Shown here one piece after another: positions 11,303 through 63,735 of a DNA stretch of 64,000 bases; within the stretch, counting starts at the first letter, position 1; each line of letters starts with the position of its first letter. Source of the DNA: Harmothoe impar (Eukaryota > Annelida > Polychaeta > Phyllodocida > Polynoidae). A model generated the notes under the pieces. That model did not search any database and was not told the origin of the DNA. It saw only the letters and a program-made list of their open reading frames with translations. The stretch lies in assembly GCA_947462335.1 (NCBI GenBank), contig OX381717.1, positions 47,969,523 through 48,033,522 of the forward strand, written 5' to 3'. Made by a program: the position numbers and the translations under genes.

Positions 11303-12419
11303 GACGGGCCCTTATTCTAATGGGTCTGGAGGGTAGGAGGGTCGGGGGCCAAATACAAGTCAAGTCACCAGGACAATGATCCTGTTTGTAATTTCTTTTT
11401 CTCTTTTTTTTCTTTTTTTTCTTTCTTTGTAAAAGGATATTCTGTAGTCAGCGGTCGGCTGAGACGACGTCCTTCCTGTCAAATGTGGGCACTGGAATAA
11501 ATTGCGTTATACACAAACAGTGGGGGGAGGGGAGGTGGTTGACACAAGGAGGGTTCTGTCTAAAAAAATCGCTCGCGAATACCTTCGCCGCAGTTGCCTA
11601 ATATGCACCAGTGTGAATTATACCCTATGAAATTCCCACAATTTTCACACAAATGTTTCTCAAAATACCAATTTGGACTACTCAGAATTTGTCAGAATGT
11701 TACTTTCACCAGTTACCTATTACCTTTAATCTGTGGCAGAGTGCACAGGGAATTTGTAGAATGTAATAGGTGCTGATTTATTTACTATCAGCACAGGAAA
11801 GCAATAATAATAGAATTAATTTGTACTACTGTGTGAGTGCTGGTTAAGTTACTACCAGCACAGTTGTCATATACTATATGTACACCAGTAGCCAGGAGGC
11901 AATACAATACAGGTGTTTTCCAGTGGTCAATTATTGTCATTAGACAACAATAGTCACAATTAGGAAAAGGTTCCAGACCTGACCAATGTCAGACCAACAG
12001 CTTCAAACAACAGTTTCAAGGGTGACTAATATTATCTAAGTGCTGACTGTGACCCTAAATAAGAAATATGTTTTTATAAAGAACAACTGGTTTTAATGAT
12101 TTTGCTCCTGTACTATATAACTGTAGCAGGAGGATATACCCACAGGAATGGGCTAGGGTATAGAACCCGGCTATTTTCGTTTTGGTTTCTGCACCCTGAG
12201 GTGCGAGGTATGATGATGATTATAGTTCTAAAACCAACACAGCCGAAGGCTGGTCAGCAGGTCCACAGGGCACATACCGACCGAACCTGGTGCGAGGTAC
12301 CTGCACTCACGGGCTGCGTCCGGTGATGCCGCAGCAGCGCGGACCTGGCAGTAAGCACCCTGTACACAATACAGTAACAACTCCACGTGGGGTGGTGGTG
12401 GGGGGGGGGGGGGGGGGCT

Positions 12420-27690: not shown

Positions 27691-28000
27691 ATGAATATAA
27701 CAGCTAAGTTTTGTCTCCTGCACCTCCTGATGTGGCATCAGGTTAATGGATCATCCTTCTCATCTGTAACTTTTAAAAAGACTTCAGTTAACCTTTCACT
27801 ACTTAAAAACATTCAAAGTAGATTAATTCCAGATCCAGGAAGTCTTATTTCTTGTGCCGTGGAATGCAGCCTTGACAGGACTTGCGGGGGATTTGGTCAC
27901 CGAACACTACCTGACAAGGGGTGCTTTCTCTTTAGCATCATTAAAGCAGGAGAAACTCACCATTATAATTTTGATGGATTTGAATACTTTTTGATAAGAG
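27691..28000 (+). CDS. PAN/FReD gene, exon 1 (signal peptide and PAN-like domain)
   Basis: ATG at 27691 opens a hydrophobic leader, followed by a four-Cys PAN-like segment. The donor is AG|GTAGGG after 28000 and leaves phase 1. The 5' UTR is not defined. Confidence 0.82.
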
Positions 28001-36443: not shown

Positions 36444-36691
36444 TTATTTCCTCTTCACCATGATAGCCGTGTATATCATAGGGTCAGCTACTTTCCACTT
36501 CCACCAAACAGGAGCTCGGCTGCCAACTGTACTTCCATACAAGCCGTTCAGGTTTGAATATATACACCAAGGGTTACCATACCACCAGCCACCAAAGTAA
36601 TGTCCAGTACAGTCCTTGTTAGTGCTCCCATCATTATCCTGATCCTTTGTAGAAAACATCTGGTTGTGGTGACGCTCAATCATGGAATCTC
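36444..36691 (-). CDS. Multi-FReD gene, module 8 exon C (terminal, with stop)
   Basis: The acceptor is TTTCTGTAG|GAGATTCC. It codes [29 protein letters not shown] and SNLNGLYG and ends MVKRK then TAA at 36444-36446, where other modules have a splice donor. Confidence 0.87.
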
Positions 36692-39600
36692 CTACAGAAA
36701 GCAAACAATTTAGATCTCTTCTGCACCTCCAATAATAGCGTAAAATGACCTTGTATGCCCAACGATGTGGAAGAATATATATAAACCCTCAGTTACTTGA
36801 AATTTTTTTAGGGGGAAACCGCTAAAATCTTGATAGAAAATCATTACATGAGTGGACAAATATATATTGGCATATTTGGTATCAGATTAAAGCATACAGT
36901 GTTGCAAATGCAATAGATAGGTGCACCGATGAAAAACACATGATTTTGATTACACGTTTTAGTGCTCCTTAATCTCTTGATAACTAAACTGTGAATTCAT
37001 CTCACTGAGAGACAACATTCCCCCACCTATTTGGTCCTTAACTTAATATATTTGAAAAAATTAACTTTTAAAAGAAAAAGGCTTGGTCGTCATATTTTTT
37101 CATGGCTTGGTGATGAGAAGTAATTTTTGTTTTTGGTGTAGCATTACATACGTAAGTTGGGCCAGGCAGAGTGAAGGTGGGGGTTTAGTTGGGACGAGTC
37201 AGCCACGATCGGCTGTGTATACAAATGGCGGACTGATTATGTGAGGAGGACCTGTCGGGTATTGCTGACATTATTAGCTTTCATTTGATACCAAAACTGA
37301 CCAATTTTGTCCAATTTCATTAGGTTTTTCATCATTTTATGATGCGCGCGCTGATGAGAAACCATTTCATTTGTTTGACTGGCCTAAACAACTAACCTGG
37401 AGTAGCAGTGCCAGTGTACGCAGAGATGTGAAGCTTGTACTTCAAATTTTCTCCGTAGACCCAAAACTCAGAATAATCGGCAGAGGCCCATTGGCCATCT
37501 AAACTTCTAAGTTGGAACTTGACCTTTTGATTTTGGTCTTTTGTCAGGAGATGTATGTAGTCATTGCCAAGCCAATGTTCTCCTAATAGATCACCAAATC
37601 CATTTTTATACTCGGTCCATGTTCTGTAGAAATCCATATTTCCATTTTGTCTCCTCTGGAAAACCTGAATTGACAAGTCTGTGCATGAGCAAACTCTGTT
37701 CTTCTTAAGAAGTAAGTGCTTGACTTCTTTTGGGGAATAGTTAAGACAAATATGTGTGCTACAGTATGTAATAAATATCTGTGAAATTGCGAATTTCACG
37801 TTTGGAGAAAAAAGTTTGTGAATATAAAAACGTTCACAGTACAAGCCTGAAAATCTAAGAGCTGGACAGTGTTACTGGGCTTGAAGCAGTGGCCCTTGAT
37901 TTTTTTACCAGTTGGGCTGAATATAATCATTCTAAAATCTTTATATATCCTTCTCAAGATGACTATGGTCCACTATCGATGCATGATATTGTCACCATAC
38001 TTCTGGGGATATGTAATGGGAAAAAAGGCAAATCAATTGTAAAAATATACCGTCCAGCCTCCACCATCTAGCTGCTGGTCACAATAGACTCTAATCATGG
38101 TGATTCCATCAGGTTTGATTGTGTAGATACCAGATGTGTGCATACCCTTGTTGTAGGCATCAAGGCAATCCAGGAACACTTGTTAAAGTAATGAAATTGA
38201 AAGAAAGCTATTTAGTATTAACGTATTGGCCTTCTTTGTGCATTTATCATAATGATTGAATTGAATTGAATTCATTATTATTCATTTCATGAGAAGGAGA
38301 GGTTGAGAATGGTATTGATTATCTGATTAGAATATTACATCCATATTTCTCCGTCATCATTTTCTAACTTGATTTACGTGAAGATGCTTTGTAACATGTA
38401 GTGTCTACATTATTAGTGATCTTAGTTGATTATGTAATTTTGTATTTGTTTAATATCAATTCAATATGACAAAAGGCTTAATCTACCCAATCAGTGCTTC
38501 TAGTCCACATGTTAAGTTATTATTTCTCATTAATGATTGCATAGTAAATGCATTTATATCTTAGATCATGTAATTCTTCTAGTTATGAACCCTATTGCAT
38601 TGATAGACACTGACCTGTTTTCACCATTATAGCTGTGTAGGCCATAGAGTGTTCAAAGCCCTTCCATGTGTACCAATTTAGCCCTTTTGCATGCTCTGTA
38701 CTTCCATACAAACCATTCAGATTTGAGAAATGGCAAGCTCCATACCACCAGGCACCGTGAAAGTCTTGTGCACAGTTAGTTGAAGAAATATCATTGTCCT
38801 GATCCTTTGTTGTAAACATCTGACCGTTTTGCTTGACATTCATGGAATCCCCTGTATGCATGTGAATGAATACAGTATCCAATAATTGTAAAAGTAATGG
38901 TTACTGACTCCAATATTACCCTTTAAATAGGCTAAGATGCGAGCAGCCCTGATAGTGCAATAATTGTAATCATAATGGTCGCTGACTCCATTATTAGGCT
39001 TTACATAAGCTAAGATGTGACCGTTGTATGTTAAAACCATGTAATAGAAACCCCTTTTTATGTTTATTATGTTTATTATGTTTAATAAAGACCAATTCAA
39101 ACTTAACGAGCCTAATTTCTGATGATAGGCCTGCTTTACCTTATTCATCAAGTAGTATAACAATCAACATGAGAAGCACCTGTTCTAAGTAATGCATTGT
39201 CAAAGGACTGATGTAGATACTTTCAATATTATTCGAAAGCATCATCAGAAAGTAGAAAACTAACCTGCAATTATTTTCCCTGAATACCCATTGATATTAA
39301 GTCTATATTTCAGGCTCTCATCTTCCACCCAAAACTCGCCATAGTCAGCAGAGGCCCATTCACCATCAGAGCTCCCAAGACGGAACTTAACTTGCTGGTC
39401 ATGGTTCTTAGTTAGGAGATGTATGTAGTCATTGCCGAGCCAGTGGTCACCATGCAAATCCCCAAAACCTGATTTATACTCAGCCCAGGTTCTGTAGAAA
39501 TCCTCTTGTCCATTTTTTCTCCGTTGAAAAACCTTTAAAGAAAGTTGGATATAATTATATAAAAAACATATAGGCAAGTTACCTTCTAACATGTGCCCAT

Positions 39601-42600
39601 CCATTAAATTGAGGGAAGATGACTGCAGGTTCACAGGTTTGTTATGGCTTTAAAAAAGGTGTGCAAGCTTAACTTGGCTCTGACTGTTTGGCTGTCTATA
39701 TAAAACACAGCCAATCCTATGAGTATAATATTTGATTTTCAAAAAAATGAACTCAGGTCATATTGAGGGGTGATAAAATGATTATCAAGTACCAATAGAT
39801 ATTGCCAAGAATTTACATGATTATTATTCCTAGTAAATCCTAACATGTCGTAAAGAGTTACAGTCAGTTAATAGCGTACTCACTGTCCAACCTCCTCCAT
39901 CAAGTTCCTGCTCACAGTAAGCTCCTAGTTCTGTGGTTGCATCAGGTCTGAGAGTATAGACACCGGATGTATGCATGCCCTTATTGTATGCATCCTGACA
40001 GTCAACGAAAACTGAAAGATTTGGTAACTGCAATGTAGTTCATCTTTAATTATTTCATATTTGGTACATGTATAATGATTCTATTTATAGTGACAATTGA
40101 GGATTGAAGCTGTTAAAGTAAGAACTACACGTTACAATGTTGACTTATGGTTTGAATAGGGCTTTAGAGCTGTTAATAATCTGTTGTAGAAATAAATACA
40201 ATAATTGTCATATTCACCTTTTCTAATCATTATAGAGGTATATTTCATAGAGTGCCTATTTCCTTTCCATGTGTCCCAATTTAGCCCTACACCAGGTGCT
40301 TCGCTTGCATACAGACCATTGAGATTGGACTGGTGACGTGACAGGGGGAACCATACCACCAAGCACCTGTGGACTCTACTGCACAGTTTGAAGAACTTTC
40401 ATCATTGCCTGCATGTCCCGCGATTTGAAGTGCATAGTTCTCACTTTCACTTCCAACCTGAAACTTGGCATAATCTGCAGAGGCCCATTCACCATCTGAA
40501 CTACCAAGTCGAAACTTGACCTGCTGGTGATTGTTTTTAGTTAGCACATGTATGTTGTCATTGCCGAGCCAGTATTCTCCCGCTACATCACCGAATCCAG
40601 TCTTATAGGCATCCCAGTCCTTGTAAAAATCTACATCTCCATTCTGACGCCTTTGGAATACCTTTTAATGTGATGGTATAATTATATACATAAAACATAG
40701 TAAAGCCTGAGAATGTACATTTCAGTTATCGCGCTCATTATGTTACACCCTTACTACCATGATCGATACCAACAATTACTGGGTAAAAGAATTTTAAAAA
40801 CCATTTTCAACAGAGTGACCGACCTATAATCAAAGATGATTTTGTTTGGTCGCTGCAGTTTAACCCGATACTGTTCGTGAAGATGCTGATGCATAATTAA
40901 ATGCAACACAAACAGTGACAAAGAGCAAATATAGTGTAGCACATACTGTCCAACCTCCACCATCAATCTCCTGGTCACAGTAAACTGCAATTGGGGTGTT
41001 TCCGTCAGGTTTTATTGTGTAGACCCCAGACAACCTCCTGCCATTATTGAAGGCATCCAGACAGTCCAGATATACTGCCGGTGTGTAAAGTAACAACATA
41101 TTACATATGTGATGCTTAAATGTGTATCCAAGGTAAAGATCAAACCTATTAATAGTATGATTTTATGGATACTGAAAATATGATGTGTCCCCAGGGCATT
41201 ACGTTTTTGAGTTGTGTTTGATTCCATTATACTAACATTACTATTAGTGCATGAACTATTTGAAATTAAGAACATGACTTGTAGATTTTTACCTGATTTC
41301 ACCATGATAGCTGAGTATATCATAGGGTCAGCTACTTTCCAGGTCCACCAGACAGGAGCTCTACCAACCTCTGTACTTCCATACAAGCCGTTCAGGTTTG
41401 AATATATACACCAAGGGTTACCATACCACCAGCCCCCAAAGTAATGTCCAGCACAGTCCTTGTTAGTGCTCCCATCGTTATCCTGATCCTTTGTAGAAAA
41501 CATCTGTGCGTTATGGCGTTCAATCATGGAATCTACAACAAATGATAAACACTTACAGGGGATCAAACCTCACCATTTTTTTACCCATCTTTCATTGCAG
41601 ATTTTAATTCCAACATGACGTAAATAATGCACCAAATGAAACACAAATCAGAATTGTATGAAGAGCCAAACAGCACAAAAGGAGGAATAAACTCTTGAGA
41701 TGTGCATACCTCCTATGTTGTTGAAAAAACATACCACCCATATTCTTAAAGGTAAATGGGTTCGGTCATAGTTGTGTTGTCAGAGGAAAAAGCTGATTGG
41801 GGGGCATGGCCCTAATGAATATAATATTCAAAGTGTGTTTAGTGTACATGCAGAAAGTTTCAGAACCTTAGAAGATTGTTTGATGATACTGTAAGCACTC
41901 CTGTGATATCTGTAAAAGCGGAGTCTACAGGCATGAAAAACTAAATCTGTGATTTTTATTCCCATTTCCTTTTCTTGTGACCTGACCAGCTTAGCATTAC
42001 TCATTGGTGTTCATACAGTTTAAATCAGATAGAAAACATCTAAGCCCTGTGTAAAAGAGCCTCTGTGGTGGTGTGGTGGCATATTTTTGTATTTTGTATT
42101 TGCTGTGTCCAGGCAGCTCAAGAGTTTGTCCTTATTTGCAATGAGCGCCATGGGTACTCAGTATGTTATGATCGCTCACTCCAGCCGGCTGTGCAGACGG
42201 GGGACTCATACTACATTTGTATGTTCTTGTAGGATGGCTTACACTAGTATTGTTTCCACTCACTTTAAACAATGAGAGAACCCAGTCTAAATATAGAAAG
42301 GTTAAAAATGCCAGTAAATCTAGCTACAGATCCGTCTCTAGTTATGCAATCAACGTTCTCATCTAAAATGCCATACTTATGAAGAACCAGAACTTAATAA
42401 GGTTATACATGTACCAAAGAAAATAAAAACAGTGGAAGATCTCACCAGTTGACACACACCACATGAAGAACAGCATGAGAACAACAATGACAAACCTAGA
42501 TTGACAGGTCCCAAGTATTTGTCAACATGAAGACGGTATTTATCACTCTCATCTCCAATCCAAAATTCAGCATAATCAGCAGAGGCCCATTCACCATTCG

Positions 42601-45600
42601 AGCTTTGAAGTCTGAATTTGGTGTGTTGTGTGTGGTCTTTAGTTAAGATATGTATATAATCATTGCCCAGCCAGTGTTCTCCTGCTGCATCTCCAAACCC
42701 TACTCTGTACTCAGCCCAGCTCCTGTAGAAATCAGTGTCTCCACTCTGCCTCCTCTGGAAAACCTGTAACAGAAGGCTATTGTGTACATGTATGAGGTAT
42801 ATATGCAGATCTGTAAAATTCAGGATGAATTGATACATTTGAATGGGTACACCTGACCTACATCTAACATACAAAATAGCATAATTGCACATCAGCATTT
42901 CTATGCAGATCACATTAAATGGGAGTATATTGGAACAATTTTTACCCCCATTCCTCATCATTATGATTGGTACCTCACAAACTAGACAACCAACTATGTT
43001 GCCTTTAACATTCGGCACTCTTTCTGACTTCTACTCGCTCACACTATTGTTATATTCACCATCCAAAGCCATGGCCCTCATGGACTCAATGCAAGTGCAT
43101 TTTGAGGCTGAGATTTGTCTGTAGTGGTCAACTTTGGAAGTAGTGAGATGAGACTAATGAGGTTTTTATAAGAGTAATGCATACATGCATCATCATTGTC
43201 AAGTTTGTGACAGCAAAAAGTGAGGCATACCGTCCATCCTCCACCATCCAGCTCCTGTTCACAGTAGACTCTCATTGTGGTCAATCCATCGGGTTTGATT
43301 GTATAGACGCCAGATGTATGCATACCACTTTGGAAAGCATCCAGACAGTCAACGAAAACTTTAGGAGCAAGACAAGGTATATTTAAGAAAAAAAAGTATA
43401 GGAGTATGAATTAAGATTCAAATGGCAGAAAAAAAACAATGAATGAAGTTTAATCAACCAATGCATTCAACCTTTCAAACGATTACAGCTTTTAGATGTG
43501 TTTGAATCCTTTTACACATATGCTATTTAATTTCCTTTCCCACCAGATAAACCCTTTGAATGTGTAATCCTTTTCTTCTTCATTAAACTGATGAGCTCTA
43601 TAACATTGATAGGCACTGACCTGTTTTCACCATTATAGCTGTGTAGGCCATAGAGTGTTCAAAGCCCTTCCATGTGTACCAATTTAGCCCTTTTGCATAC
43701 TCTGTACTTCCATACAAACCATTCAGATTTGAGAAATGGCAAGCTCCATACCACCAGGCACCGTGAAAGTCTTGTGCACAGTTAGTTGTACCAATATCAT
43801 TGTCCTGATCCTTTGTTGTAAACATCTGACCGTTTTGTTTGACATTCATGGAATCCCCTGTATGCATGTGAATAAACTTACAATGTGGGTTCAAAATTGT
43901 AAAACCATGTGCACCGATCTGTAAATCATGCTTGCATCAAAAGACATATTCAGCCTATAGTCTAATGATAGGACTGCATTTTCTTTTTTTTATTAACTAG
44001 TATAACTATCAGTTTCATATGCATCTACTTTAAGCCTTTGAGGACAACCAAGGGCAAGATACGGGAAAGAGTTATGCTATCTATCGTCGAAAATGTTAAG
44101 TGACAATGAATCCATTCTGAAATGACTTCAGTTAGAAGCTAAAAAAAATCACCTGGAATTGCCTTCCCAGAATAGCCCTCAATTGTAAGCCGGTATTTCA
44201 GGCTTTCATCTTCAACCCAAAACTGGGAGTAATCAGCAGAAGCCCATTCCCCGTCAGAACTCTGAAGTCTAAACTTAACATGTTGGTTGTGCCTTTTGGT
44301 CAGGAGATGTAGATACTCATTGCCAAGCCAGTATTCATCCTCAGGATCCCCAAATCCTGCCTCGTACTCTGTCCAGGTTTGGTAAAAGTCGAGATGTCCA
44401 CTCTTTCTCCGTTGGAAAACCTGCAATCGCGATTATATATTTCTAAATAAAACAACATTTTGTCCGGAAGATGGGTTGATTTAAAGTTCACCTAATTTGT
44501 AAGCTAGCATAGTTATTAGTCCTTTATGAGTGGTTTGGGCATCCGGTAAATTCAATAACTTAATTACCAAAATGGGCAATTCCCTATTTTCATAATGGGT
44601 TTCTAAAATTAATGCACCCAGATCCTCCATATTTCCTCATAGCCAGCGGATCACTTTACTGCATCACTGTCTCAATGTTCTGGATTTTTTGTTGTACAGG
44701 ATAAATCTATACGTAGAGGTCAATAAACAATTTATTACGCACTGTCCAACCTCCACCATCTAACTTCTGCTCACAATAAGCTCTCAGCTCTGTGTTTGCA
44801 TCAGGTCTGAGAGTATAGACACCGGATGTATGCATGCCCTTATTGTATGCGTCCTGACAGTCAACGAAAACTGAAAGATTTGGTAACTGCAATGTAGTTC
44901 ATCTTTAATTATTTCATATTTGGTACATGTATAATGATTCTATTTATAGTGACAATCGAGGATTGAAGCTGTTAAAGTAAGAACTACACGTTACAATGTT
45001 GACTTATGGGTTGAATGAGGCTTTAGAGCTGTTAATAATCTGTTGTAGAAATAAATACAATAATTGTCATATTTACCTTTTCTAATCATTATAGAGGTAT
45101 ATTTCATAGAGTGCCTATTTCCTTTCCATGTGTCCCAATTTAGCCCTACACCAGGTGCTTCGCTTCCATACAGACCATTGAGATTGGACTGGTGACAGGG
45201 GGAACCATACCACCAAGCACCTGTGGACTCTACTGCACAGTTTGAAGAACTTTCATCATTGTCTTGATCCTTTGTTGTGAACATCCTTCCATTCTGATAT
45301 TCAATCATGGAATCTCCTATACACATTGAAAGAATCAACAAAGATGAATAAATACTCTTTTAGACAAATAACAATTTAATTACAATGGCCATGAGAGTGA
45401 CACATCCAATCATAATTTAATATGAACGATATAAGTTGCAAACGGATATAGATTCCTGAAAAAAAGTGTAGGGTGCAGGGTATTGATTGATACTTATAAC
45501 TTTATTTCCATGCCATAAATTACCAAAAATTGACCATACTTGTGAGAAGTGATCAAAGGTATCAGAACAGTGTATAAATCAAGTAAAGGTTGAATAAAGA

Positions 45601-54600: not shown

Positions 54601-57600
54601 ACCCCCTTCCGGCTTCCTATTCTTCCACGGCGGTTTAGAGGAATTTCCATTCCTCTTGAACTGAGCCGCAGAAGCCGTTGCCTCCTCATCGCTGCCTTCA
54701 TCCTCAGACTGTTCCGGAGAACATTCTATGATGGCAGAGGCCCGGGTCGGTACCCGGTCTCCGAGCAGCGACTTCTTGAGGGCGTGTATATCGATGGCCT
54801 TAAAAAGGTCATCCAATGATGTATCTGCCCTCCACGTATCATACACTGTTTGTTGTACGTCGGGGTCTCTCAATCCGGCGACGAATTGAGAGAACAATTC
54901 CTTAGAAAATAAGGCATCGTGGATCCCTGAAGCAGGATGTACCTTCTTCAGGAGTCTCATCAACGCAAGTCCGAACACCCTCGGGGCCTCGTTCTTGCCT
55001 TGCACCCGTTTTTTAAAAGCAACCATCGGATCTATCCGGGCGGAGCCTCCAAACAATATAGTCCCGATCTCCACCAGCTGTTTGAAAGTACCATGCGGTC
55101 CGCATTCGTCTTTCCACTGCTCGACAGCCATCATGCCATCTCCTATGCGCAATCCCTTACAGATATAAGGAATAGCATCTTGTTGGTCCCAGCCACTGAG
55201 GTTGATGTCCTCCACGGTGGCCATCAGCCAGTCCTCCCACGAGTTTTTCTGCCAGTACGGACTAGGTTCACTAGCAATCCGTCGGGCCGCATTGGACGAT
55301 CCCCTAATCTTAGAGATGATCGACAAGCATTTGGAAATGGCAGTCGAGGCGTCTTGTTCCGCGCCTACGTTGTGCAATCCTATCCCTGCTATAGCCGGGT
55401 TAGTATCGTACAACTCTTGTAACTCCGTACTCAGAATTGTTCGTCTCGGAGCCTTCTTTGGACTCTTTCTTCCTGGAGTCGCCCCCGGAGTAGCCCCTGG
55501 TGTCGGCACACTATTTTGTCTCTCCAGATAGGCCTGGTAAGTACCGTACGCCACCAACTCTGTCGTGGGGTCAATCCCTTGACTGAACCACCAATTCTTT
55601 TCCAGATCTGTCATATACTGGCACTGTTGGGCCAGAGCAAGCAACCGTTGATGCTCCGCCTTCTCCTTCACCAAGTGTTTGGCTTGCTTGTCAGCCTCCT
55701 CCTCTTGCTGAGCTTGTTCCAGTTTGGCCTTCGCAGCCTCGCCGGCAGCCCTCAGTCCCTCTTTTCGGGCTCTCAGGACGGCCGCCTCCTGCTCCGCTAG
55801 CTCTTCCGCCATCGCAGCGTTTTCTCTCATACGCTTCTTTTGTTGTTCCAGAAGAGCTTTCTGCGGGCGGTACACTTCCCGCCTCTCAGTTTCTAGGGCT
55901 TTCTGTTCCTGAAACATCTTGTTGGTTTGGCAAGTTTGCCACTGGGCCAAGCTTCTAGGGGTTAGGTAGCTTTTGGCTGCCTCCTCCTGAACGGCTGCCT
56001 TCTTCCGGCGTTCCGAATCAAGACGTTGCAACTGTCCCTGAGGGGTAAGTACCCGCTCCGACAATGGCCTTCCTCTTCCCGCCGGGGTAATCCCCGGAGC
56101 CATCGAAACGTCCTCTTTCGGTATTGGACGGATGCCCATGATACCCACTCTTGGTGAGTATTCACTTGCCAATCCTTTGCCCCTTGCTCTGCCAAACCTA
56201 AGGGGTCGACCTGGCGTTGAGGCAGACAAAGCCGACTCTATAGTCACTCCGCGCCCACTTGGTAGGTTCGGAGTGTCTGTAAAACTCATGTAATGACCAG
56301 CCCTCGGGCTCTCATTATCAGCTGAAGCATACGAGGTACTGCTGTCCTGCATACTATGTCGAGCCTCCAATAAGAATTGCTGTAGAGCATTCTTCTTGGT
56401 TCTCAAGATGTCACACTCCGTATTTAGAGTCTGACGAGTCTCCCTTAGGTCTTCCGTATCCCGAACAAGTTCGGAACGTACTCCCTCTGCTTCTGCTACC
56501 ACGGCATCCCTGGCAACACAAATTTGGTTCAGCTCCGTGTTTGCAGAAACAAACTCGGCTCGGACCTCGTCCAGGTCAGCCGTCTTCTGGTTGAACTCCG
56601 ACCGAACCAAACTTAGAGACTGTGCCAGCTTCTCGTTTTCTTCCAACAAGGTGGATAACCTCGCATCCTTCTCCTTGATTTTGGAAGCTCGGTGTGTGAC
56701 TGCGCCTTCCAACGCAATCAAGTTGTTTTTCCATTCGTTGGACTGGGCCTGAATGGTCAACAATTCCCTTTGGGCTACTTGCAGACGTTCCTGCACCCTG
56801 GCTTCTCTCATATCGTTGAAGCGACGCTCCTCCGAAATGTCAAACCTCTGAGGTGTCGGAGCGGCTTCTCGTGATCCGCCGACGTTAAACATCGACAGAC
56901 TCATCTCCTCTAATGAACGACTCATTATTTCCGGACCCATTAGCACGCCTGCTCCGGGCAGAACATTCGCGCTTCGTGTGGGGGTATCTGCCTCATCTCC
57001 GGCATCTAACCCCACCATTGACAAGGCTAACGCCTCATCGGGAGACCTCGCTGCTCCGGCCAGAGCACGAGGTCTGTGCTTTTGCACAGGCTAACCTGCT
57101 TTTCACTCAGAACTGGTCACGGCACCAGTGTAATAAACGATACTTTGCTCCTCTATGATATTGTTATAGTATCAAATAAAAGAACAAAGTCCACACAGTT
57201 CGGATCAAGTGTTACAGGTTGCGAATCAATAGGTTTATTCAGTAACCTAGACAGGCAAAGCTCTACCCAGTGGGCACAGAACATTGAATCAACATTGATA
57301 AGTGGTTGACAATGTTGATACAATGTTGATTCAATGTTGAATCAACGCTAAACTGGATTTCGTGCCCACTGGGTAATCGTGCGAACTCCCTATAGAGTTC
57401 GGAACGGGTCAGTAGGCTAATATAGCCGCAGTGATCTCGGGGTCTCTTCACCAGCGTGGCTCAGAGTAACCGACGAGTCCCATTGGATGCTGGGTATATA
57501 TAGGCAGCCAGCCTGCGCGCGCACACGCAGACCAGAAGCCTATAGCGACCTCTGTCCATACCCCAAGCCCGAAGCAGGTGTCGCCACCTGCCGTCGGACT

Positions 57601-60600
57601 GAAGGGTTCGGACGGAGTTCGCAACACAGCATCCAACAGAACCCGTCATATAAAACCCCGTATAACCCTAGCCCCTACACTTCCATGATCGATACCAACA
57701 ATTACTGGGTAAAAGAATTTTGAAAACCATTTTCAACAGAGTGACCGACCTATAATCAAAGATGATTTTGTTTGGTCGCTGCAGTTTAACCCGATACTGT
57801 TCGTGACAATGCTGATGCATAATTAAATGCAACACAAACAGTGACAAAGAGCAAATATAGTGTAGCACATACTGTCCAACCTCCACCATCAATCTCCTGG
57901 TCACAGTAAACTGCAATTGGGGTGTTTCCGTCAGGTTTTATTGTGTAGACCCCAGACAACCTCCTGCCATTATTGAAGGCATCCAGACAGTCCAGATATA
58001 CTGCCGGTGTGTAAAGTAACAACATATTACATATGTGATGCTTAAATGTGTATCCAAGGTAAAGATCAAACCTATTAATAGTATGATTTTATGGATACTG
58101 AAAATATGATGTGTCCCCAGGGCATTACGTTTTTGAGTTGTGTTTGATTCCATTATACTAACATTACTATTAGTGCATGAACTATTTGAAATTAAGAACA
58201 TGACTTGTAGATTTTTACCTGATTTCACCATGATAGCTGAGTATATCATAGGGTCAGCTACTTTCCAGGTCCACCAGACAGGAGCTCTACCAACCTCTGT
58301 ACTTCCATACAAGCCGTTCAGGTTTGAATATATACACCAAGGGTTACCATACCACCAGCCCCCAAAGTAATGTCCAGCACAGTCCTTGTTAGTGCTCCCA
58401 TCGTTATCCTGATCCTTTGTAGAAAACATCTGTGCGTTATGGCGTTCAATCATGGAATCTACAACAAATGATAAACACTTACAGGGGATCAAACCTCACC
58501 ATTTTATTACCCATCTTTCATTGCAGATTTTAATTCCAACATGACGTAAATAATGCACCAAATGAAACACAAATCAGAATTGTATGAAGAGCCAAACAGC
58601 ACAAAAGGAGGAATAAACTCTTGAGATGTGCATACCTCCTATGTTGTTGAAAAAACATACCACCCATATTCTTAAAGGTAAATGGGTTCGGTCATAGTTG
58701 TGTTGTCAGAGGAAAAAGCTGATTGGGGGGCATGGCCCTAATGAATATAATATTCAAAGTGTGTTTAGTGTACATGCAGAAAGTTTCAGAACCTTAGAAG
58801 ATTGTTTGATGATACTGTAAGCACTCCTGTGATATCTGTAAAAGCGGAGTCTACAGGCATGAAAAACTAAATCTGTGATTTTTATTCCCATTTCCTTTTC
58901 TTGTGACCTGACCAGCTTAGCATTACTCATTGGTGTTCATACAGTTTAAATCAGATAGAAAACATGTAAGCCCTGTGTAAAAGAGCCTCTGTGGTGGTGT
59001 GGTGGCATATTTTTGTATTTTGTATTTGCTGTGTCCAGGCAGCTCGAGAGTTTGTCCTTATTTGCAATGAGCGCCATGGGTACTCAGGATGTTATGATCG
59101 CTCACTCCAGCCGGCTGTGCAGACGGGGGACTCATACTACATTTGTATGTTCTTGTAGGATGGCTTACACTAGTATTGTTTCCACTCACTTTAAACAATG
59201 AGAGAACCCAGTCTAAATATAGAAAGGTTAAAAATGCCAGTAAATCTAGCTACAGATCCGTCTCTAGTTATGCAATCAACGTTCTCATCTAAATTGCCAT
59301 ACTTATGAAGAACCAGAACTTAATAAGGTAACCCTCCAAACAGAACTTGGGAATTGAACGTTCGCAACTGGGTAGAATCTGGATAGGTCACAATGACACA
59401 AGAAAGGCACGGGAATTGAACGTTCGCAACTGGGTAGAATCCGGGTAGGTCACAATAACACAAGAAAGGCACGAGATATTCCCAAGAATTGTGAACATGT
59501 CCTTGTTACAATCAGAGCTTGGGAATTAAACGTTTGCAACCGGGTAGAATTCTACCCAGTTGCGAACGTTCAATTCCCGTGCCTTTCTTGGGTCATTGTG
59601 ACCTATCCGGATTCTACTCAGTTGTGAACGTTCAATTCCGAAGTTCTGATTGTAATAAGGAATGTTCACAATTCTTGGGAATATCTCGTGCCTTTCTTGT
59701 GTCATTGTGACCTACCCGGATTCTACCCAGTTGCGAACGTTCAATTCCCAAGTTCTGTTCGATATAAATAAGGTGAAATTCCACAGAATATGACACAGTC
59801 AAAAGCTGTTCACATATTCTCGTGCCAGATACGTGCACAATTCTCGCAGGGATCCCGAGTTGTGACTCAAGAACTGCACGAGTTCTGCCCGAGATCTTGT
59901 TTGCAGGGAATACATGTACCAAAGAAAATAAAAACAGTCGAAGATCTCACTAGTTGACACACACCACATGAAGAACAGCATGAGAACAATAATGACAAAC
60001 CTAGATTGACAGGTCCCAAGTATTTATCAACATGAAGACGGTATTTATCACTCTCATCTCCAATCCAAAATTCAGCATAATCAGCAGAGGCCCATTCACC
60101 ATTCGAGCTTTGAAGTCTGAACTTGGTGTGTTGTGTGTGGTCTTTAGTTAAGATATGTATATAGTCATTGCCCAGCCAATGTTCTCCTGCTACATCTCCA
60201 AACCCTACTCTGTACTCAGCCCAGCTCCTGTAGAAATCAGTGTCTCCACTCTGCCTCCTCTGGAAAACCTGTAACAGAAGGCTATTGTGTACAATGTATA
60301 AGAAAGCCATTCAGCTCTGAACATGATGAATACATGCAGCTTAACCCTTTAGGGCCGAGCATCGACTATAGTTGATACCATGGCTGGCCGAGCATCGACT
60401 ATAGTCGACACCATGGCTGGCCGAGCATCGACTATAGTCGACATAACTCTATGGGAATCAGCAAAGGCTCGGCCCTAGGAGAAGTTCCTGTGAAAATGTC
60501 TCGCCCCCCATCACCAGAATTTTTTTTTGGTCGGCCCTAAAGGGTTAAGAAGTACTACTGTTGCCAGAACAACAGATTAATGACCTTGATTTAGCATACA

Positions 60601-63600
60601 GAATATTATAATTGCACATCACTATAACTGTGCAGAGCATATTAAATAGTAAGGTATTGGAGGGCTTTTTTTTTTACATTCATTCCACATCACTGGTACC
60701 TCAGGAATCTAGGTAAGGAAGGTATTGCACCCACATAGGTAACCAGCTGTGTTGTCTTTGATACCCAATACATTTGCTGACTTCAACTTGAACTTCAACC
60801 AAACCCTCAACGTCTAACATAAACTATGACCAGTAGCTGCGTCTTCTTAGACCAAACACTTTCCCTCGCCTTTATGCTTGTGATAACCCACAATTGTTAT
60901 TCATGCATATCAACCATCCTAATCACTGCCCTATATGGACTAATCACACTTAATAGGTACTGTAAATTCCTGCATATTACCTGCATCTCGCGTATAACCC
61001 ACACCCCCAACTCAGGAGAATCCTATGACCCGTTTTTGGATCTGAAAACCTCAATTTTAGTGCTGTTCTATAGTAATAAAAACCCTCGTATAACCCACAG
61101 CCTATATACTGTAAACATACTTTATTTCGCGCTGTACATATTTTCGCGGATTTAAAAATATGTACAGAGCGAAAATTTATCCAATGTAACTACAGTACTA
61201 CCACCTGTCAAAATCCGCGAATTTAAATCAGCGCGAAATTGTCCTTTTTAACAAATCCGCGAAAATTTATACCAGCAAAAATAAGTACGTTTACAGTATA
61301 GGCATGTTTGGTATCAAATAAAAGCTGGTAGTACGCAGGAATTTACAGTACTAGATGCACAGGTTCATGAATTGACACATACCGTCCATCCGCCACCATC
61401 CAGCTCCTGTTCACAGTAGACTCTCATTGTGGTCAATCCATCGGGTTTGATTGTACAGACGCCAGACGTACGCATACCATTATTGAAAGCATCCAGACAG
61501 TCAACAGGAACTTAAGGAGCAAAATATGGTATAATAGTTAAAAAGCTGTATAGAAGTATTTATCAAGCTTTATTTAAATTAAATCACTGCTTGTGAATGT
61601 GCATGATAGACATTGACCATTGACTTTGATTTACATAATGCTATTGGATTTGGCATAGCTTTCCCCCAAGGGGCCATCCATTAATTATGTACGCACATTT
61701 TTGGCCAAAAGAGACCCCCCAACCGCCCTGTTGCACCATGTACGCATTTGGACTACTCCCCCCCCCCTTCCATGCGTGCATATGCATTTAACTTTTACCC
61801 CCCCCCCCCCCCCACACACTGATAAAATAAAGGAATCCTATCAAATTTACTGAGGAACTTTAGTGTTAATAGGTGCATATGTAGGGGGAGGAACCTGGTC
61901 CTTGTACTGTGCTTGATATAATCATGTACACAACCTGCATTCCCTCTGCTCAAAAACGTCCCAATTTCCATGGATTTCTAGACAGAATAGTACCGCTTTT
62001 TTTTTAAAGCCTTAAAAATACCACGGACTGATCTAGGAAAAATACCCCTTTTTCTAAATGCCAGGGACATTGGCAGGGATAAGGAAAAAAATACCCTTTT
62101 CTTGTGTTTTTAGGAAATGAAGGTTGTGTGCATGTACCATGGAGAGTGCAGGGACCGGAGGAAGGAACTCCTTTTTGATGATCTGTATCTTAGGAGAGAG
62201 TGGGGCGGAAGATTTTCCAAGTACATTAGTTTTCTCCTTACCATCCCCACTACCAATAGGCTACTTATGGCTAATTGGTAGGTTGGTAGGGGGATCAAAA
62301 ATTATTTGGCATGTTTGCAAAATCCAAAAGAAAATTTGTTTGGATATCAAAAAGGTACCAATTTTAGTCTAAAATGACCAAAATCGGCCCTATGCGTGTA
62401 CACACAATGCGTATGCCAAAATGGGCCTAGACCCTCCCCCCCCCACCCCCCTGTATGCATCTGTACGCATTTGGCCTGACCCCCCCCCCCCACCCCCCTT
62501 CATACATACATAATTAATAATGGACAGCCGCCAAGGAAGAAATCCTTAAGGTTGTCCCACCTCTATAGCTATCACTAAATTTCTAAAATTCTTAGATCGC
62601 CTTTGGTTTCATTTAGTGAAAAGAAATTGGATAAATGCAGTGAATTCAACTAATAAGCACTCACCCTTTCTAACCATTATAGCTGTATAGACCATAGAGT
62701 GTGTAGTTCCTTTCCATGAATACCAAACAAGCCCTTCCGCTTCCACTGTACTGCATTCAGGTTGGACTGATGGCAAGCTCCATATACCACAAGGCACCGT
62801 GAAAGTCTTGTGCACAATTAGTTGAAGAAATATCATTGTCCTGATCCTTTGTTGTAAACATCTGACCGTTTTGTTTGACATTCATGGAATCTCCTATATA
62901 AGTTAATGTTGGCGAAGTACATTAATTACAAGTACCAGTAATAAATTGACCATTAATATGAGAATACTAGTATTAGCTGCATAGCTGTACAATGGCGGTA
63001 CAGAAACATATACTGATTATGTAATAAACAGACAAGACATTGGGTTTGGTGGACTGAGATAATTCCCAGCAATATGGCATTATTAATTAGCACATATAAA
63101 AACAGTCAATAGTCCTAAGTTACAAACAGCACCTATATCTAAGCTTAGCTATAACAATAAAAGTAAAATTTGAAATTAGTCACAGGAGCTCCGTTCACAC
63201 CGGGGTTTGCCGTCCAACTGACGCGCAACTCAAACAAGTGGCCTTTTATAGTGCGGTGTAACTTTGTCATGACAACGTGACGTCACAGGTATTCATACGC
63301 CGGGGACGGACTACAGTGGTTAGGTTCACTTTGTATTAATTATATCCATATACGCAGGGTTATATAGTGCCATATGTAAATAACCAGAGAGTTGTTACAT
63401 TGATAAATTATAATAAATCTAACTAGGGTTTACCTCTGCATAAGATATAGTGAATGATGAAGCATTGTGTAATAAATTAGACTAACCTGGAGTTGGATGA
63501 CCTGAATGCTTGTCAATATGTAATCTGTATTTCAGGCTCTCATCTTCCACCCAAAATTCGCCATAATCAGCAGAGGCCCATTCACCATCTTAACTTGCTG

Positions 63601-63735
63601 GTCATGGTTCTTAGTTAGGAGATGTATATTTTCATTGCCGAGCCAGTATTCTCCAGTCACCTGACCAAATCCTATTTTATATTCAGCCCAGGTTCCATAG
63701 AAGTCCACTTGTCCATTTTGTCTCCTCTGCAAAAT
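36444..63735 (-). CDS. Tandem multi-FReD gene (5' end outside the window)
   Basis: Eight consecutive FReD modules in one direction, each on exons A (128 bp, phase 1 to 0), B (268 bp, 0 to 1) and C (237-240 bp, 1 to 1). Exon A carries DCxDAxNx[11 protein letters not shown] and [13 protein letters not shown] carries VFQRRxNGxxDFYxxWxEY and GEWASADY; C carries KDQDND and [14 protein letters not shown] exons of all but the last module end at a donor (for example ACAG|GTCAGT), and the next A exon begins in the matching phase, so modules splice in frame to each other. In the compact half the gaps between modules are 206-437 bp, too short for separate promoters and leaders. The final C exon ends MVKRK and stop. 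Six modules are intact, about 212 residues each. FReDs are usually secreted lectin-like domains; the function of this chain is unknown. Start and signal peptide lie beyond 64000. Confidence 0.8.
37397..37664 (-). CDS. Multi-FReD gene, module 8 exon B
   Basis: 268 bp with acceptor AATTCAG|GTTTTCCAG and donor CCAG|GTTAGT. It codes [19 protein letters not shown] to YTGTATPG. Confidence 0.87.
38051..38178 (-). CDS. Multi-FReD gene, module 8 exon A
   Basis: 128 bp with acceptor TTTAACAAG|TGTTCCTGG and donor GGACG|GTATAT. It codes [16 protein letters not shown] to DGGGWT. Confidence 0.85.
38615..38851 (-). CDS. Multi-FReD gene, module 7 exon C
   Basis: 237 bp with acceptor ATACAG|GGGATTCC and donor ACAG|GTCAGT. 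It codes [15 protein letters not shown] and [18 protein letters not shown]. Nearly identical to 43621-43857. Confidence 0.87.
38879..39020. repeat. Tandem ~75-bp duplication in module 7 B-C intron
   Basis: CAATAATTGTAA, TAATGGT, CTGACTCCA, ATTA and GGCTAAGATG recur in the same order at 38879-38945 and 38958-39020 with scattered differences. Confidence 0.6.
39265..39532 (-). CDS. Multi-FReD gene, module 7 exon B
   Basis: 268 bp with acceptor CTTTAAAG|GTTTTTCAACGG and donor GCAG|GTTAGT. It codes [19 protein letters not shown] and [16 protein letters not shown]. Clearly diverged from its counterpart at 44153-44420. Confidence 0.87.
39884..40011 (-). CDS. Multi-FReD gene, module 7 exon A
   Basis: 128 bp with acceptor ATCTTTCAG|TTTTCGTTG and donor GGACA|GTGAGT. 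It codes [16 protein letters not shown] and [12 protein letters not shown]. Nearly identical to 44743-44870. Confidence 0.87.
40218..40661 (-). pseudogene. Multi-FReD gene, module 6 exons B and C fused by deletion, frame broken
   Basis: Compared with the intact copy (45725-45992 and 45077-45316), a deletion of about 490 bp removed the end of B, the intron and the start of C. The join keeps the reading frame (AGHAG followed by [11 protein letters not shown]). A 5-bp duplication (GTGACGTGAC at about 40333-40342) then shifts the frame after WWYGSPCH and leads to a stop. The calcium-site part of C (KDQD) is lost. Acceptor and donor at the outer edges are preserved. Without the 5-bp duplication the fused exon would still be phase-compatible. 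Confidence 0.85.
40947..41074 (-). CDS. Multi-FReD gene, module 6 exon A
   Basis: 128 bp with acceptor CCGGCAG|TATATCTGG and donor GGACA|GTATGT. It codes [16 protein letters not shown] and [11 protein letters not shown]. Matches 57873-58000 exactly by eye. It leads into a broken B/C exon. Confidence 0.82.
41293..41532 (-). CDS. Multi-FReD gene, module 5 exon C
   Basis: 240 bp with acceptor TTGTTGTAG|ATTCCATG and donor TCAG|GTAAAA. It codes [18 protein letters not shown] and [10 protein letters not shown]. Matches 58219-58458. The acceptor is shifted by one codon compared with other C exons but phase is kept. Confidence 0.87.
42496..42763 (-). CDS. Multi-FReD gene, module 5 exon B
   Basis: 268 bp with acceptor TGTTACAG|GTTTTCCAGAGG and donor CTAG|GTTTGT. 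It codes [19 protein letters not shown] and [16 protein letters not shown]. Nearly identical to 60001-60268. Confidence 0.87.
43231..43358 (-). CDS. Multi-FReD gene, module 5 exon A
   Basis: 128 bp with acceptor CTCCTAAAG|TTTTCGTTG and donor GGACG|GTATGC. It codes [16 protein letters not shown] and [12 protein letters not shown]. Only 262 bp separate it from the C exon of module 4. Confidence 0.87.
43621..43857 (-). CDS. Multi-FReD gene, module 4 exon C
   Basis: 237 bp with acceptor ATACAG|GGGATTCC and donor ACAG|GTCAGT. It codes [15 protein letters not shown] and [18 protein letters not shown]. Confidence 0.87.
44153..44420 (-). CDS. Multi-FReD gene, module 4 exon B
   Basis: 268 bp with acceptor GATTGCAG|GTTTTCCAACGG and donor CCAG|GTGATT. 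It codes [19 protein letters not shown] and [16 protein letters not shown]. Confidence 0.87.
44743..44870 (-). CDS. Multi-FReD gene, module 4 exon A
   Basis: 128 bp with acceptor ATCTTTCAG|TTTTCGTTG and donor GGACA|GTGCGT. It codes [16 protein letters not shown] and [12 protein letters not shown]. Confidence 0.87.
45077..45316 (-). CDS. Multi-FReD gene, module 3 exon C
   Basis: 240 bp with acceptor TGTATAG|GAGATTCC and donor AAAG|GTAAAT. It codes [37 protein letters not shown]. This is the intact counterpart of the broken exon at 40218. Confidence 0.87.
45725..45992 (-). CDS. Multi-FReD gene, module 3 exon B
   Basis: 268 bp with acceptor TTTAAAG|GTATTCCAAAGG and donor CCGG|GTAAGT. It codes [16 protein letters not shown] to [10 protein letters not shown]. 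The upstream intron now holds the 11.6-kb LTR element. Confidence 0.87.
46089..46470 (-). repeat. Element 2, 3' LTR (382 bp)
   Basis: TG...CA-bounded on both strands (TGTAATAAAC to CCCCTACA on plus). It lacks the two extra segments present in the other LTR. Confidence 0.92.
46471..46482 (-). other. Element 2, polypurine tract
   Basis: On the minus strand GGTAGGGGGTAG sits directly before the 3' LTR. Confidence 0.6.
46483..47339 (-). other. Element 2, non-coding 3' region
   Basis: AT-rich sequence between the last coding region and the polypurine tract. No ORF worth reporting. Confidence 0.5.
47340..50235 (-). pseudogene. Element 2, third coding region after pol (not an envelope), broken
   Basis: About 2.9 kb with coding character, spread over frames by shifts near 49870-49990 and 47804 and in-frame stops at 48782 (TAG) and 48497 (TGA). 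In order: a Ser/Pro/acidic N-terminal part ([12 protein letters not shown] near 50150); a Lys/Pro/Thr-rich part like a histone H1 tail ([12 protein letters not shown], near 49790); a Pro/Ser/Ala-rich stretch (49684-49200); a more ordered part with [13 protein letters not shown] (48720); a stretch with CPDGG and HMAKKH (48400-48460) that might bind metal; and a C-terminal coiled coil, Lys/Glu-rich, with an acidic DDSDEED tail (47340-47804). I see no signal peptide or membrane segment, so it is not a retroviral-type envelope. Function unknown; a DNA- or chromatin-binding role is speculation from composition. Confidence 0.65.
50236..50538 (-). other. Element 2, spacer between pol and third coding region
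   Basis: No open minus-strand frame with coding character. Confidence 0.4.
50539..51997 (-). pseudogene. Element 2 integrase region of pol, frameshifted at the C-terminus
   Basis: 51997-50963 reads an HHCC-type finger ([23 protein letters not shown]) and the catalytic core with [20 protein letters not shown] and [17 protein letters not shown], so D, D and E are all visible. Near 51000 the frame shifts by one base; the next frame continues with [11 protein letters not shown] and [10 protein letters not shown]. Another shift leads to a basic Lys/Arg-rich tail ending at 50539. Confidence 0.82.
52031..54366 (-). pseudogene. Element 2 protease-RT-RNase H region of pol, broken
   Basis: The N-terminal part (54234-53830) resembles the flap and ILGLDF end of a retroviral-type aspartic protease, but I see no DTG catalytic motif and the frame shifts on both sides of it. 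From 53962 the RT reads [17 protein letters not shown] and [11 protein letters not shown] to YPLP, then an in-frame TGA at 53246. It resumes with [16 protein letters not shown] and YLDDVIVFG (near 52990). RNase H ([22 protein letters not shown]) is intact. A second TGA at 52031 separates it from the integrase in the same frame. Confidence 0.87.
54367..57087 (-). CDS. Element 2 Gag, 906 aa, open
   Basis: Starts 41 bases after the 5' LTR. Residues 90-250 and 360-480 are long coiled coils ([15 protein letters not shown]; then Glu/Ala/Lys-rich). Residues 560-780 resemble a retrotransposon capsid ([31 protein letters not shown]). One CCHC zinc knuckle ([14 protein letters not shown]) lies near 887-900. 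It stops with TAG at 54367. At 906 residues and with such large coiled coils it is longer than most gypsy Gag proteins. Pol lies in another frame, so a programmed shift may once have linked them, but decay hides the site. Confidence 0.87.
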   Translation of the reverse strand: MQKHRPRALAGAARSPDEALALSMVGLDAGDEADTPTRSANVLPGAGVLMGPEIMSRSLEEMSLSMFNVGGSREAAPTPQRFDISEERRFNDMREARVQERLQVAQRELLTIQAQSNEWKNNLIALEGAVTHRASKIKEKDARLSTLLEENEKLAQSLSLVRSEFNQKTADLDEVRAEFVSANTELNQICVARDAVVAEAEGVRSELVRDTEDLRETRQTLNTECDILRTKKNALQQFLLEARHSMQDSSTSYASADNESPRAGHYMSFTDTPNLPSGRGVTIESALSASTPGRPLRFGRARGKGLASEYSPRVGIMGIRPIPKEDVSMAPGITPAGRGRPLSERVLTPQGQLQRLDSERRKKAAVQEEAAKSYLTPRSLAQWQTCQTNKMFQEQKALETERREVYRPQKALLEQQKKRMRENAAMAEELAEQEAAVLRARKEGLRAAGEAAKAKLEQAQQEEEADKQAKHLVKEKAEHQRLLALAQQCQYMTDLEKNWWFSQGIDPTTELVAYGTYQAYLERQNSVPTPGATPGATPGRKSPKKAPRRTILSTELQELYDTNPAIAGIGLHNVGAEQDASTAISKCLSIISKIRGSSNAARRIASEPSPYWQKNSWEDWLMATVEDINLSGWDQQDAIPYICKGLRIGDGMMAVEQWKDECGPHGTFKQLVEIGTILFGGSARIDPMVAFKKRVQGKNEAPRVFGLALMRLLKKVHPASGIHDALFSKELFSQFVAGLRDPDVQQTVYDTWRADTSLDDLFKAIDIHALKKSLLGDRVPTRASAIIECSPEQSEDEGSDEEATASAAQFKRNGNSSKPPWKNRKPEGGGNPPKKKESSDKKAPMMDAAFFTALFEKMTTSIQGATQPNRRKINRRTAKCYRCLEIGHFAAECTAPCPKVPGKEGN
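57114..57127 (-). other. Element 2, primer binding site (tRNA-His-like)
   Basis: On the minus strand TGGTGCCGTGACC starts one base after the 5' LTR. It complements the 3' end of animal tRNA-His (acceptor GTCACGGCACCA) over 12 bases, by my recall of that tRNA. Confidence 0.7.
57129..57679 (-). repeat. Element 2, 5' LTR (551 bp, with two extra segments)
   Basis: Collinear with 46089-46470 except for the TA-flanked MITE at 57266-57373 and an extra ~59 bp at about 57475-57533. The latter contains TATATATA (57495-57502) and a CCAAT-type box (CCCATTGG). Few point differences from the 3' LTR otherwise. Confidence 0.9.
57266..57373. mobile_element. TA-type MITE inserted in the element 2 LTR
   Basis: 108 bp with ends CCCAGTGGGCAC and its complement, flanked by TA (57264-57265, 57374-57375). 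The other LTR keeps the empty site (CTCTAATCG). Related to 26630-26740. Confidence 0.9.
57873..58000 (-). CDS. Multi-FReD gene, module 3 exon A
   Basis: 128 bp with acceptor CCGGCAG|TATATCTGG and donor GGACA|GTATGT. It is separated from its B exon by an 11.9-kb intron created by the LTR element insertion; the equivalent intron at 40662-40946 is 285 bp. Confidence 0.87.
58219..58458 (-). CDS. Multi-FReD gene, module 2 exon C
   Basis: 240 bp with acceptor TTGTTGTAG|ATTCCATG and donor TCAG|GTAAAA. Same coding sequence as 41293-41532. Confidence 0.87.
59331..59909. mobile_element. MITE inserted in the module 2 B-C intron
   Basis: Present here but absent from the matching site at about 42402-42406. 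It starts ACCCTCCAAACAGAACTT and ends CTTGTTTGCAGGG, the same ends as 30552-30831. The interior holds several direct and inverted copies of GAATTGAACGTTCGCAACTG and AAGGCACG blocks. Confidence 0.8.
60001..60268 (-). CDS. Multi-FReD gene, module 2 exon B
   Basis: 268 bp with acceptor TGTTACAG|GTTTTCCAGAGG and donor CTAG|GTTTGT. It codes [19 protein letters not shown] with [13 protein letters not shown]. Confidence 0.87.
60345..60544. mobile_element. piggyBac-like MITE (TTAA type) with internal palindromic repeats
   Basis: 200 bp with ends CCCTTTAGGGCCGA and its near-complement, flanked by TTAA (60341-60344 and 60545-60548). Three tandem ~34-bp copies of GGCCGAGCATCGACTATAGT follow the left end; each contains the palindrome GACTATAGTC. 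Confidence 0.87.
60958..61350. mobile_element. MITE with 16-bp inverted repeats, outer of a nested pair
   Basis: TACTGTAAATTCCTGC at 60958-60973 and its exact complement at 61335-61350. It ends 33 bp before exon A of module 2 and contains the inner element. Confidence 0.75.
61107..61298. mobile_element. MITE, inner of the nested pair
   Basis: TACTGTAAACATACTT at the left and its near-complement AAGTACGTTTACAGTA at the right. The interior has repeated ATCCGCGAA and GCGCGAAAT motifs in both orientations. Confidence 0.7.
61383..61510 (-). CDS. Multi-FReD gene, module 2 exon A
   Basis: 128 bp with acceptor CTCCTTAAG|TTCCTGTTG and donor GGACG|GTATGT. It codes [19 protein letters not shown] and [12 protein letters not shown]; too short for the usual ORF size cut-off because it has no stop-to-stop span. 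The CT in SGVCT replaces the usual Tyr with Cys, an extra unpaired cysteine. Confidence 0.82.
61670..62532. mobile_element. Foldback element with C-run interior
   Basis: Left GGGGCCATCCATTAATTATG and right end (CATAATTAATAATGGACAGC) are imperfect inverted repeats. CAAG occurs just outside on both sides. Inner parts repeat TGTACGCATTTGG and long C runs (61760-61812, 62430-62497). No coding capacity. It lies between modules 1 and 2. Confidence 0.55.
62665..62893 (-). pseudogene. Multi-FReD gene, module 1 exon C, frameshifted
   Basis: The acceptor (TATATAG|GAGATTCC) and donor (AAAGG|GTGAGT) are kept, and the start matches other C exons ([19 protein letters not shown]). A 2-base insertion within the WWYGA codons then shifts the frame, a TGA follows, and a stretch coding NGLYG is deleted. 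The end ([19 protein letters not shown]) is recognisable in another frame. Length is 229 bp, against 237-240 in intact copies. Confidence 0.82.
62894..63486 (-). other. Intron between module 1 exons B and C
   Basis: No bounded element or other feature seen. Confidence 0.5.
63487..63735 (-). pseudogene. Multi-FReD gene, module 1 exon B, frameshifted by a 19-bp deletion
   Basis: It starts [17 protein letters not shown] after an acceptor CTCATAG|ATTTTGCAG and matches other B exons to NHDQQVK. Compared with module 7, 19 bases coding FRLGSSD are missing at about 63589-63591, shifting the frame. The donor CCAG|GTTAGT is kept. Its A exon lies beyond 64000. Confidence 0.82.

Follow-up and report, generated by a model that had tools for sequence, protein, structure and literature searches.

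A probable poly-FReD gene, damaged in this copy, in the polynoid annelid Harmothoe impar

Introduction

Lectins that bear fibrinogen-related domains (FReDs) gain avidity by oligomerising through collagen, coiled coils or other parts. Ficolin-1 and tenascin-R each possess a single C-terminal FReD and are oligomerised via other domains, and ficolins have an N-terminal collagen-like region. A chain of domains encoded by tandem exons would be another route to lectin avidity.

Proteins in which the domain is repeated have been described in insects. The accessible parts of two reports give two to three FBG domains per protein for FREPs of Anopheles gambiae and Drosophila (PMC1242226, PMC2429915), and clusters of FReD genes are reported there and in the accessible part of a third paper (PMC6321704). 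These multi-FBG FREPs resemble the locus described here in having more than one FBG domain or FReD per polypeptide and in forming clusters by tandem duplication (PMC1242226, PMC2429915). As far as the same partial texts go, the repeated FBG domains of A. gambiae are mostly not full domains, and some are joined by hinges of about 20 or about 150 residues, whereas the modules of our array would be joined without a linker.

Here we analyse a stretch of 64,000 nucleotides from the polynoid annelid Harmothoe impar (GenBank assembly GCA_947462335.1, contig OX381717.1, positions 47,969,523 to 48,033,522 of the forward strand; hereafter the window), in which eight FReD modules lie head-to-tail on the minus strand. 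We think it probable, on the evidence of the genomic sequence, that the locus is a poly-FReD gene, transcribed as a unit and damaged in this copy.

Results

Eight modules in an array

The modules, which were located by motifs and profile scans, run from position 63735 to 36444, that is, from M1 (63.7k) through M8 (36.4k) (Table 1). Scans of the minus strand returned 7 A, 8 B and 8 C exons, those of M1 B, M1 C and M6 C in pieces, and exon ends were placed by inspecting the flanking sequence; together they confirm the eight modules of a preliminary description, at the coordinates it gave. Six modules (M2, M3, M4, M5, M7 and M8) are intact, and the longest intact run is four. In these six, exon A is 128 nt long, passes from phase 1 to phase 0 and ends after GGGWT, exon B is 268 nt long and passes from phase 0 to phase 1, and exon C, phase 1 to 1 in the non-terminal modules, is 237 or 240 nt long there and 248 nt long in M8. 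All of their exons have GT/AG ends. The C exon of M8, which terminates in ...AIMVKRK and a stop codon, is the only C exon with a stop. When the exons are joined, the frame is open for 847 codons from M2 to M5 and for 425 codons plus the stop from M7 to M8. The earlier statement that every module repeats the same three exons with the same phases thus holds for the six intact modules; M6 has two exons, and no A exon of M1 is present within the window.

Table 1. Modules of the array and other features of the window, with exon coordinates given in the direction of reading
Feature	Position (strand)	Type and state	Exon A	Exon B	Exon C	End of exon C, or content
M1	62665..63735 (-)	Z, broken	not in window	63735-63487	62893-62665	donor GTGAGT
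M2	58219..61510 (-)	X, open	61510-61383	60268-60001	58458-58219	donor GTAAAA
M3	45077..58000 (-)	Y, open	58000-57873	45992-45725	45316-45077	donor GTAAAT
M4	43621..44870 (-)	Z, open	44870-44743	44420-44153	43857-43621	donor GTCAGT
M5	41293..43358 (-)	X, open	43358-43231	42763-42496	41532-41293	donor GTAAAA
M6	40218..41074 (-)	Y, broken	41074-40947	40661-40218 (fused B-C)		donor GTGAAT
M7	38615..40011 (-)	Z, open	40011-39884	39532-39265	38851-38615	donor GTCAGT
M8	36444..38178 (-)	X, open and terminal	38178-38051	37664-37397	36691-36444	ends MVKRK-stop
LTR retroelement	46089..57682 (-)					RT, RNase H, integrase, zinc knuckle (Pfam)
Single-FReD comparison gene	27691..29737 (+)		28170-28291	28492-28756	from 29445	leader exon, PAN-like segment

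By protein identity the intact modules fall into three types, X (M2, M5 and M8), Y (M3) and Z (M4 and M7), and at the DNA level M6 groups with Y and M1 with Z. The order is Z X Y Z X Y Z X, a three-module higher-order repeat.

Each intact module would encode a complete domain of the ficolin and tenascin kind. All six match Pfam PF00147, M7 over residues 4-210 (profile positions 4-219 of 221), and C5, C33, C159, C172, D149, D151 and D153 are invariant among them; we take the cysteines to be paired and the aspartates to form the calcium site. The best PDB matches are tenascin-R and ficolin-1 for M7 and ficolin-1 for M5. The FReDs of ficolin-1 and tenascin-R (PDB 2d39, 2wnp and 8fn9) are matched by M7 over their full length (E 3e-54 to 7e-57), and M7 has the same TKDQDND segment as ficolin-1. 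The two residues before SNLNG are CH in M3, M4 and M7 and CI in the X-type modules M2, M5 and M8, and Cys-His at this position presumably marks the ligand pocket of ficolin and tachylectin-type acetyl-binding lectins. The array would likely encode an extracellular, multivalent lectin in which the ligand pocket varies with module type.

Joining of consecutive modules

Because the outer phases of a module are both 1, a C exon could splice to the next A exon and the domains would follow each other without a linker (...IMVKT-VFVDC...). A phase-1 GT donor is present at all seven non-terminal C ends, so that the preliminary account of a stop in the last module and a donor at every other C end was accurate, as were the coordinates of the three junctions that it named (43621/43358, 41293/41074 and 38615/38178). 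All seven A exons within the window start after AG in phase 1. Across the C donor, mean identity falls from 72% on the exon side to 34% on the intron side (M5, M3, M7 and M1), and across the A acceptor from 73% to 29% (M5, M3, M7 and M8), each set consisting of four representatives, two of which are of the same type but diverged; the boundaries therefore look constrained and unlike accidental GTs. When donors were scored with a model built from the 14 A and B donors against a background of all minus-strand GTs of 36-64k, the C donors of M1, M3, M4, M6 and M7 were among the best 0.9-2.4%; those of M2 and M5 were weak, falling only within the best 13%.

The modules are 206, 262, 218, 206 and 436 bp apart in the compact half of the array, and in the wider half 218 bp separate M2 from M3 and 1154 bp separate M1 from M2. 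Five of the seven gaps (206-262 bp) thus leave little room for a terminator, a promoter and a leader exon. No usable leader exon was seen among the ATG ORFs of at least 15 codons in the gaps, the 1154-bp gap included, when these were judged by eye, which agrees with the earlier observation that no leader lies between the modules of the compact half. AATAAA or ATTAAA occurs in five of the seven gaps, as expected of AT-rich DNA.

A useful comparison is provided by the single-FReD gene on the plus strand of the same window, which shares the FReD intron positions and phases of the array but has a leader exon, one FReD and a stop codon in its C exon, whereas the non-terminal C exons of the array have no stop. 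AATAAA lies at 29844, 107 bp downstream of this gene. Its cysteine-rich, PAN-like segment is weak (Pfam PAN_1 E 0.095, 13 bits compared with a cut-off of 21.4).

Single-FReD genes side by side are the usual layout of FReD clusters, for which the accessible parts of the literature give precedents (PMC1242226, PMC2429915, PMC6321704), and the array could in principle be eight such genes. However, seven of the eight C ends lack a stop, most of the gaps are as short as described above, and the tails obtained by reading through the C exons, of 7, 18, 28 and 93 residues, differ by type while the donor is kept. We regard eight separate genes as extremely improbable, and rejected this arrangement on gap length, absent leaders and kept donors. 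Read-through of the C exons into ordinary C-termini was also rejected, the tails being unlike between types.

Consecutive modules were very probably spliced together: the exon phases, boundaries and open frames, all read from genomic DNA, fit at least two FReDs per polypeptide. The broader proposal of the preliminary description, that a single transcript joins all the modules, is favoured by the phases, the kept boundaries, the absence of stops at the non-terminal C ends and the short gaps, and is weakened by the breaks in M1 and M6 and by an LTR element with AATAAA, to which we return below. The weak donors of M2 and M5, the AATAAA or ATTAAA motifs in the gaps, the lack of either motif soon after the M8 stop and the high omega of three recent exon pairs (see below) also count against it. 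No first exon of the array is present within the window, and the 5' end lies beyond it. After the stop of M8, neither AATAAA nor ATTAAA occurs within 1 kb; ATTAAA is found at 35006 and AATAAA at 34485. The place expected for the 3' untranslated region, shortly past this stop (35646-36351), is occupied by a degenerate 21-bp tandem array of about 31 copies, which can also be read with a 110-bp period.

The X-type gap (41292-41075 and 58218-58001, minus strand) has a peculiarity of its own. The C frame remains open there for 93 residues, with a hydrophobic stretch, and runs into the next A exon out of frame and ends in it. Among 5000 dinucleotide shuffles of the gap, 48 were open and 8 were both open and as hydrophobic. 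Since M2 and M5 are recent copies, the two open gaps count as a single event, which was singled out post hoc and is kept as a curiosity. If this intron were retained, the resulting FReD would end in a hydrophobic tail.

Damage and selection

M1 carries three frameshifting indels, a 19-nt deletion in B and, in C, changes of +2 and -10 nt. In M6 the entire B-C intron is missing, which leaves it with two exons, and with it 69 nt of coding sequence, some of them from the calcium segment; M6 also carries an insertion of 5 nt. Neither lesion was mentioned in the preliminary description, nor were the three-type repeat and the LTR element described below. Both frames are broken, and the window therefore does not hold eight intact FReDs in one open frame; the claim that one gene encodes at least eight FReDs fails for this copy. 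M3 and M6 are 100% identical in their A exons and 98% identical in their B and C exons, and because the near-identical M3 is intact, the damage to M6 looks recent and younger than the M3/M6 duplication.

The A-B intron of M3 measures 11880 bp because an LTR retroelement sits in it. The two LTRs (about 46089-46473 and 57129-57682) are approximately 99% identical where alignable and differ by insertions; the element is oriented in the sense of the FReD modules, with AATAAA in both LTRs. Its insertion is recent, as judged by the difference of about 1% between aligned LTR stretches, and postdates the M3/M6 duplication, since M6 has the empty site. An LTR element in sense orientation may end transcription early. 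Elsewhere in the window, a single open frame of 2352 codons (4253-11311, minus strand) resembles, by eye, a retroelement polyprotein, and a 15-bp repeat recurs in it about 35 times (10132-10651).

Selection ratios were computed on the exon calls made in this analysis. In comparisons between types, dS is at least about 0.8, with saturation in several pairs, and omega, where computable, is 0.10-0.28; selection between types is purifying. For seven recent exon pairs (A2/A5, A3/A6, A4/A7, B2/B5, B3/B6, C2/C5 and C4/C7), summed by hand, omega is about 0.3, with 16 synonymous changes over about 280 sites against 19 nonsynonymous ones over about 1103. Three of these pairs, A2/A5, B3/B6 and C4/C7, have omega values of 0.66-0.93, with few changes.

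Alternatively, the array might be decaying, having once been a poly-FReD gene but no longer functioning in this genome or haplotype. The two broken modules of eight, the recent sense insertion of the LTR element and the high ratios of the last three pairs speak for such decay, but six modules remain fully open with GT/AG ends, the pooled recent pairs still give an omega of about 0.3, and the lesions of M6 look younger than the duplication that gave rise to it, M3 being intact. We consider complete loss of the gene unlikely. If the array is not expressed, the locus is a FReD array in decay.

It is a less likely possibility still, and in our opinion a slim one, that several shorter genes of two to four FReDs each stand in a row, for example with one ending before M2 or with a split at the LTR element or at M6. 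In its favour, the M1-M2 gap measures 1154 bp, the LTR element could have split a gene, and predicted proteins elsewhere have at most four FReDs (among 216 listed); against this, the terminal stop in a C exon is confined to M8, and the inspection of gaps by eye, that between M1 and M2 included, yielded no leader-like ATG ORF. A poly-FReD gene damaged in this copy remains the reading that we prefer.

Growth of the array

The tract from exon B of M2 to exon A of M4 can be aligned with that from exon B of M5 to exon A of M7 in pieces that are 95.5-99.5% identical, exons and introns alike. The two differ by a 580-bp insertion in the former and the M6 deletion in the latter. The insertion, of about 580 bp at 59330-59909 in the B-C intron of M2, contains inverted repeats (59337-59759) and a 62-bp tandem pair, and is absent from the M5 copy. 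Beyond the tract, M4 (44870-43621) and M7 (40011-38615, both minus strand) are 91% identical in exon A, 98% in exon C and only 74% in exon B, with 50-60% in the introns by B. Such a mosaic on the scale of exons is what unequal exchange and conversion would leave, and in M4 and M7 it perhaps reflects conversion. M8 and M1 are diverged from the other modules of their types.

Identity as high as that of the repeated tract is also possible for alleles, introns included, and two haplotypes assembled end to end would cause one locus to be counted twice. We think this very unlikely, because the identity becomes mosaic past the tract and because of the divergence of M8 and M1 just described; moreover, even without one of the copies the chain layout would still comprise at least five modules.

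The relationships of the domains were examined in a midpoint-rooted tree of 68 FReDs, comprising the six intact modules, the FReD of the plus strand and 61 domains from at most 33 hand-picked proteins. The six modules formed one clade (support 0.863). Domains of the same protein were monophyletic in 13 of the 22 multi-domain proteins and not in the other 9, which suggests more than one origin of tandem FReDs.

Discussion

We propose that a three-type unit was multiplied through unequal exchange and conversion, which would have led to the arrangement Z X Y Z X Y Z X-stop, and that the exons of successive modules were joined into one message. The original product would likely have been a secreted and multivalent protein, probably an immune or adhesive lectin, with secretion and ligand binding both predicted. 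With two dead modules, M1 and M6, and an LTR element at which transcription may stop, the product of this copy is probably shorter or truncated. It might consist of M2-M5 and M7-M8 if splicing passes over M6 as a 1-1 unit; with modules of this kind, the frame would be kept when dead or extra copies are left out or inserted.

A bolder version, which we offer tentatively and hold to be doubtful, is that the locus encodes an extensible heterotypic lectin polymer. Such a protein would have at least six linkerless FReDs of three types, one without Cys-His before SNLNG; its length would vary between individuals by unequal exchange of the three-module unit, dead 1-1 modules being skipped, and a choice in splicing could add a form with a hydrophobic tail from the X-type gap.

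The individual modules have relatives in many animals. Their top eight matches are about 43-50% identical and the best in a single-module search about 53% (best 120 of 1959), and matches are spread over amphioxus, brachiopod, mollusc, cnidarian, sponge, echinoderm and vertebrate proteins alike. A scan of viral contigs for two peptide patterns produced 41 pattern matches, none of them a relative.

Multi-FReD proteins were sought with three and with six joined modules, and the best 120 of 4671 and the best 120 of 702 matches were considered, the latter search taking its query words from the first 500 residues and being confined to proteins of about 700-2226 residues. FReDs were counted with our own profile, fragments being merged and stretches of more than 100 profile positions being counted, so that some domains are partial. 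Among the 216 homologs listed, 60 had one FReD, 130 two, 16 three and 10 four; four is thus the maximum among the best matches listed from each search. The preliminary description had held that FReDs are normally present singly, which is overstated given the listed polypeptides with two to four, some of whose domains are partial, and the insect FREPs with two to three. If the modules form one gene, its product falls outside the class defined by a single FReD alongside IgSF. Chains of more than three FBG domains were not found in the literature searched, from which subscription journals were mostly absent, so that one may have been published.

Tight spacing also has parallels. From a late tryptophan to the first cysteine of the next domain, 33 junctions in 32 of 334 proteins span at most 50 residues, and 23 of the 33 at most 29. 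The corresponding distance in the array, 21 residues, compares with 24 in a predicted spider protein (P0050), 22 in a nematode protein (P0099), 25 and 26 in two starfish proteins (P0066 and P0041), 29 in a Branchiostoma protein (P0063) and 19 in an oyster protein (P0017). A structure model of P0050, which has three tight FReDs, predicts the same secondary-structure pattern three times (mean pLDDT 76.9, pTM 0.51); the relative placement of its domains is uncertain, and it says little about the protein of the array itself.

Predicted proteins with two to four FReDs, some as tightly linked as the modules described here, therefore occur in several phyla, and those of other animals are predicted gene models. 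The tight proteins have at most four FReDs (among the 216 listed), whereas the array has six intact and two broken modules. If it is expressed with six domains, the chain would be longer than any among those listed, and the locus would be well suited to following how unequal exchange extends a lectin array. Since multi-FReD proteins exist elsewhere, the kind is already known; what would be new in Harmothoe is the length of the chain and its three-type repeat, subject to the two dead modules.
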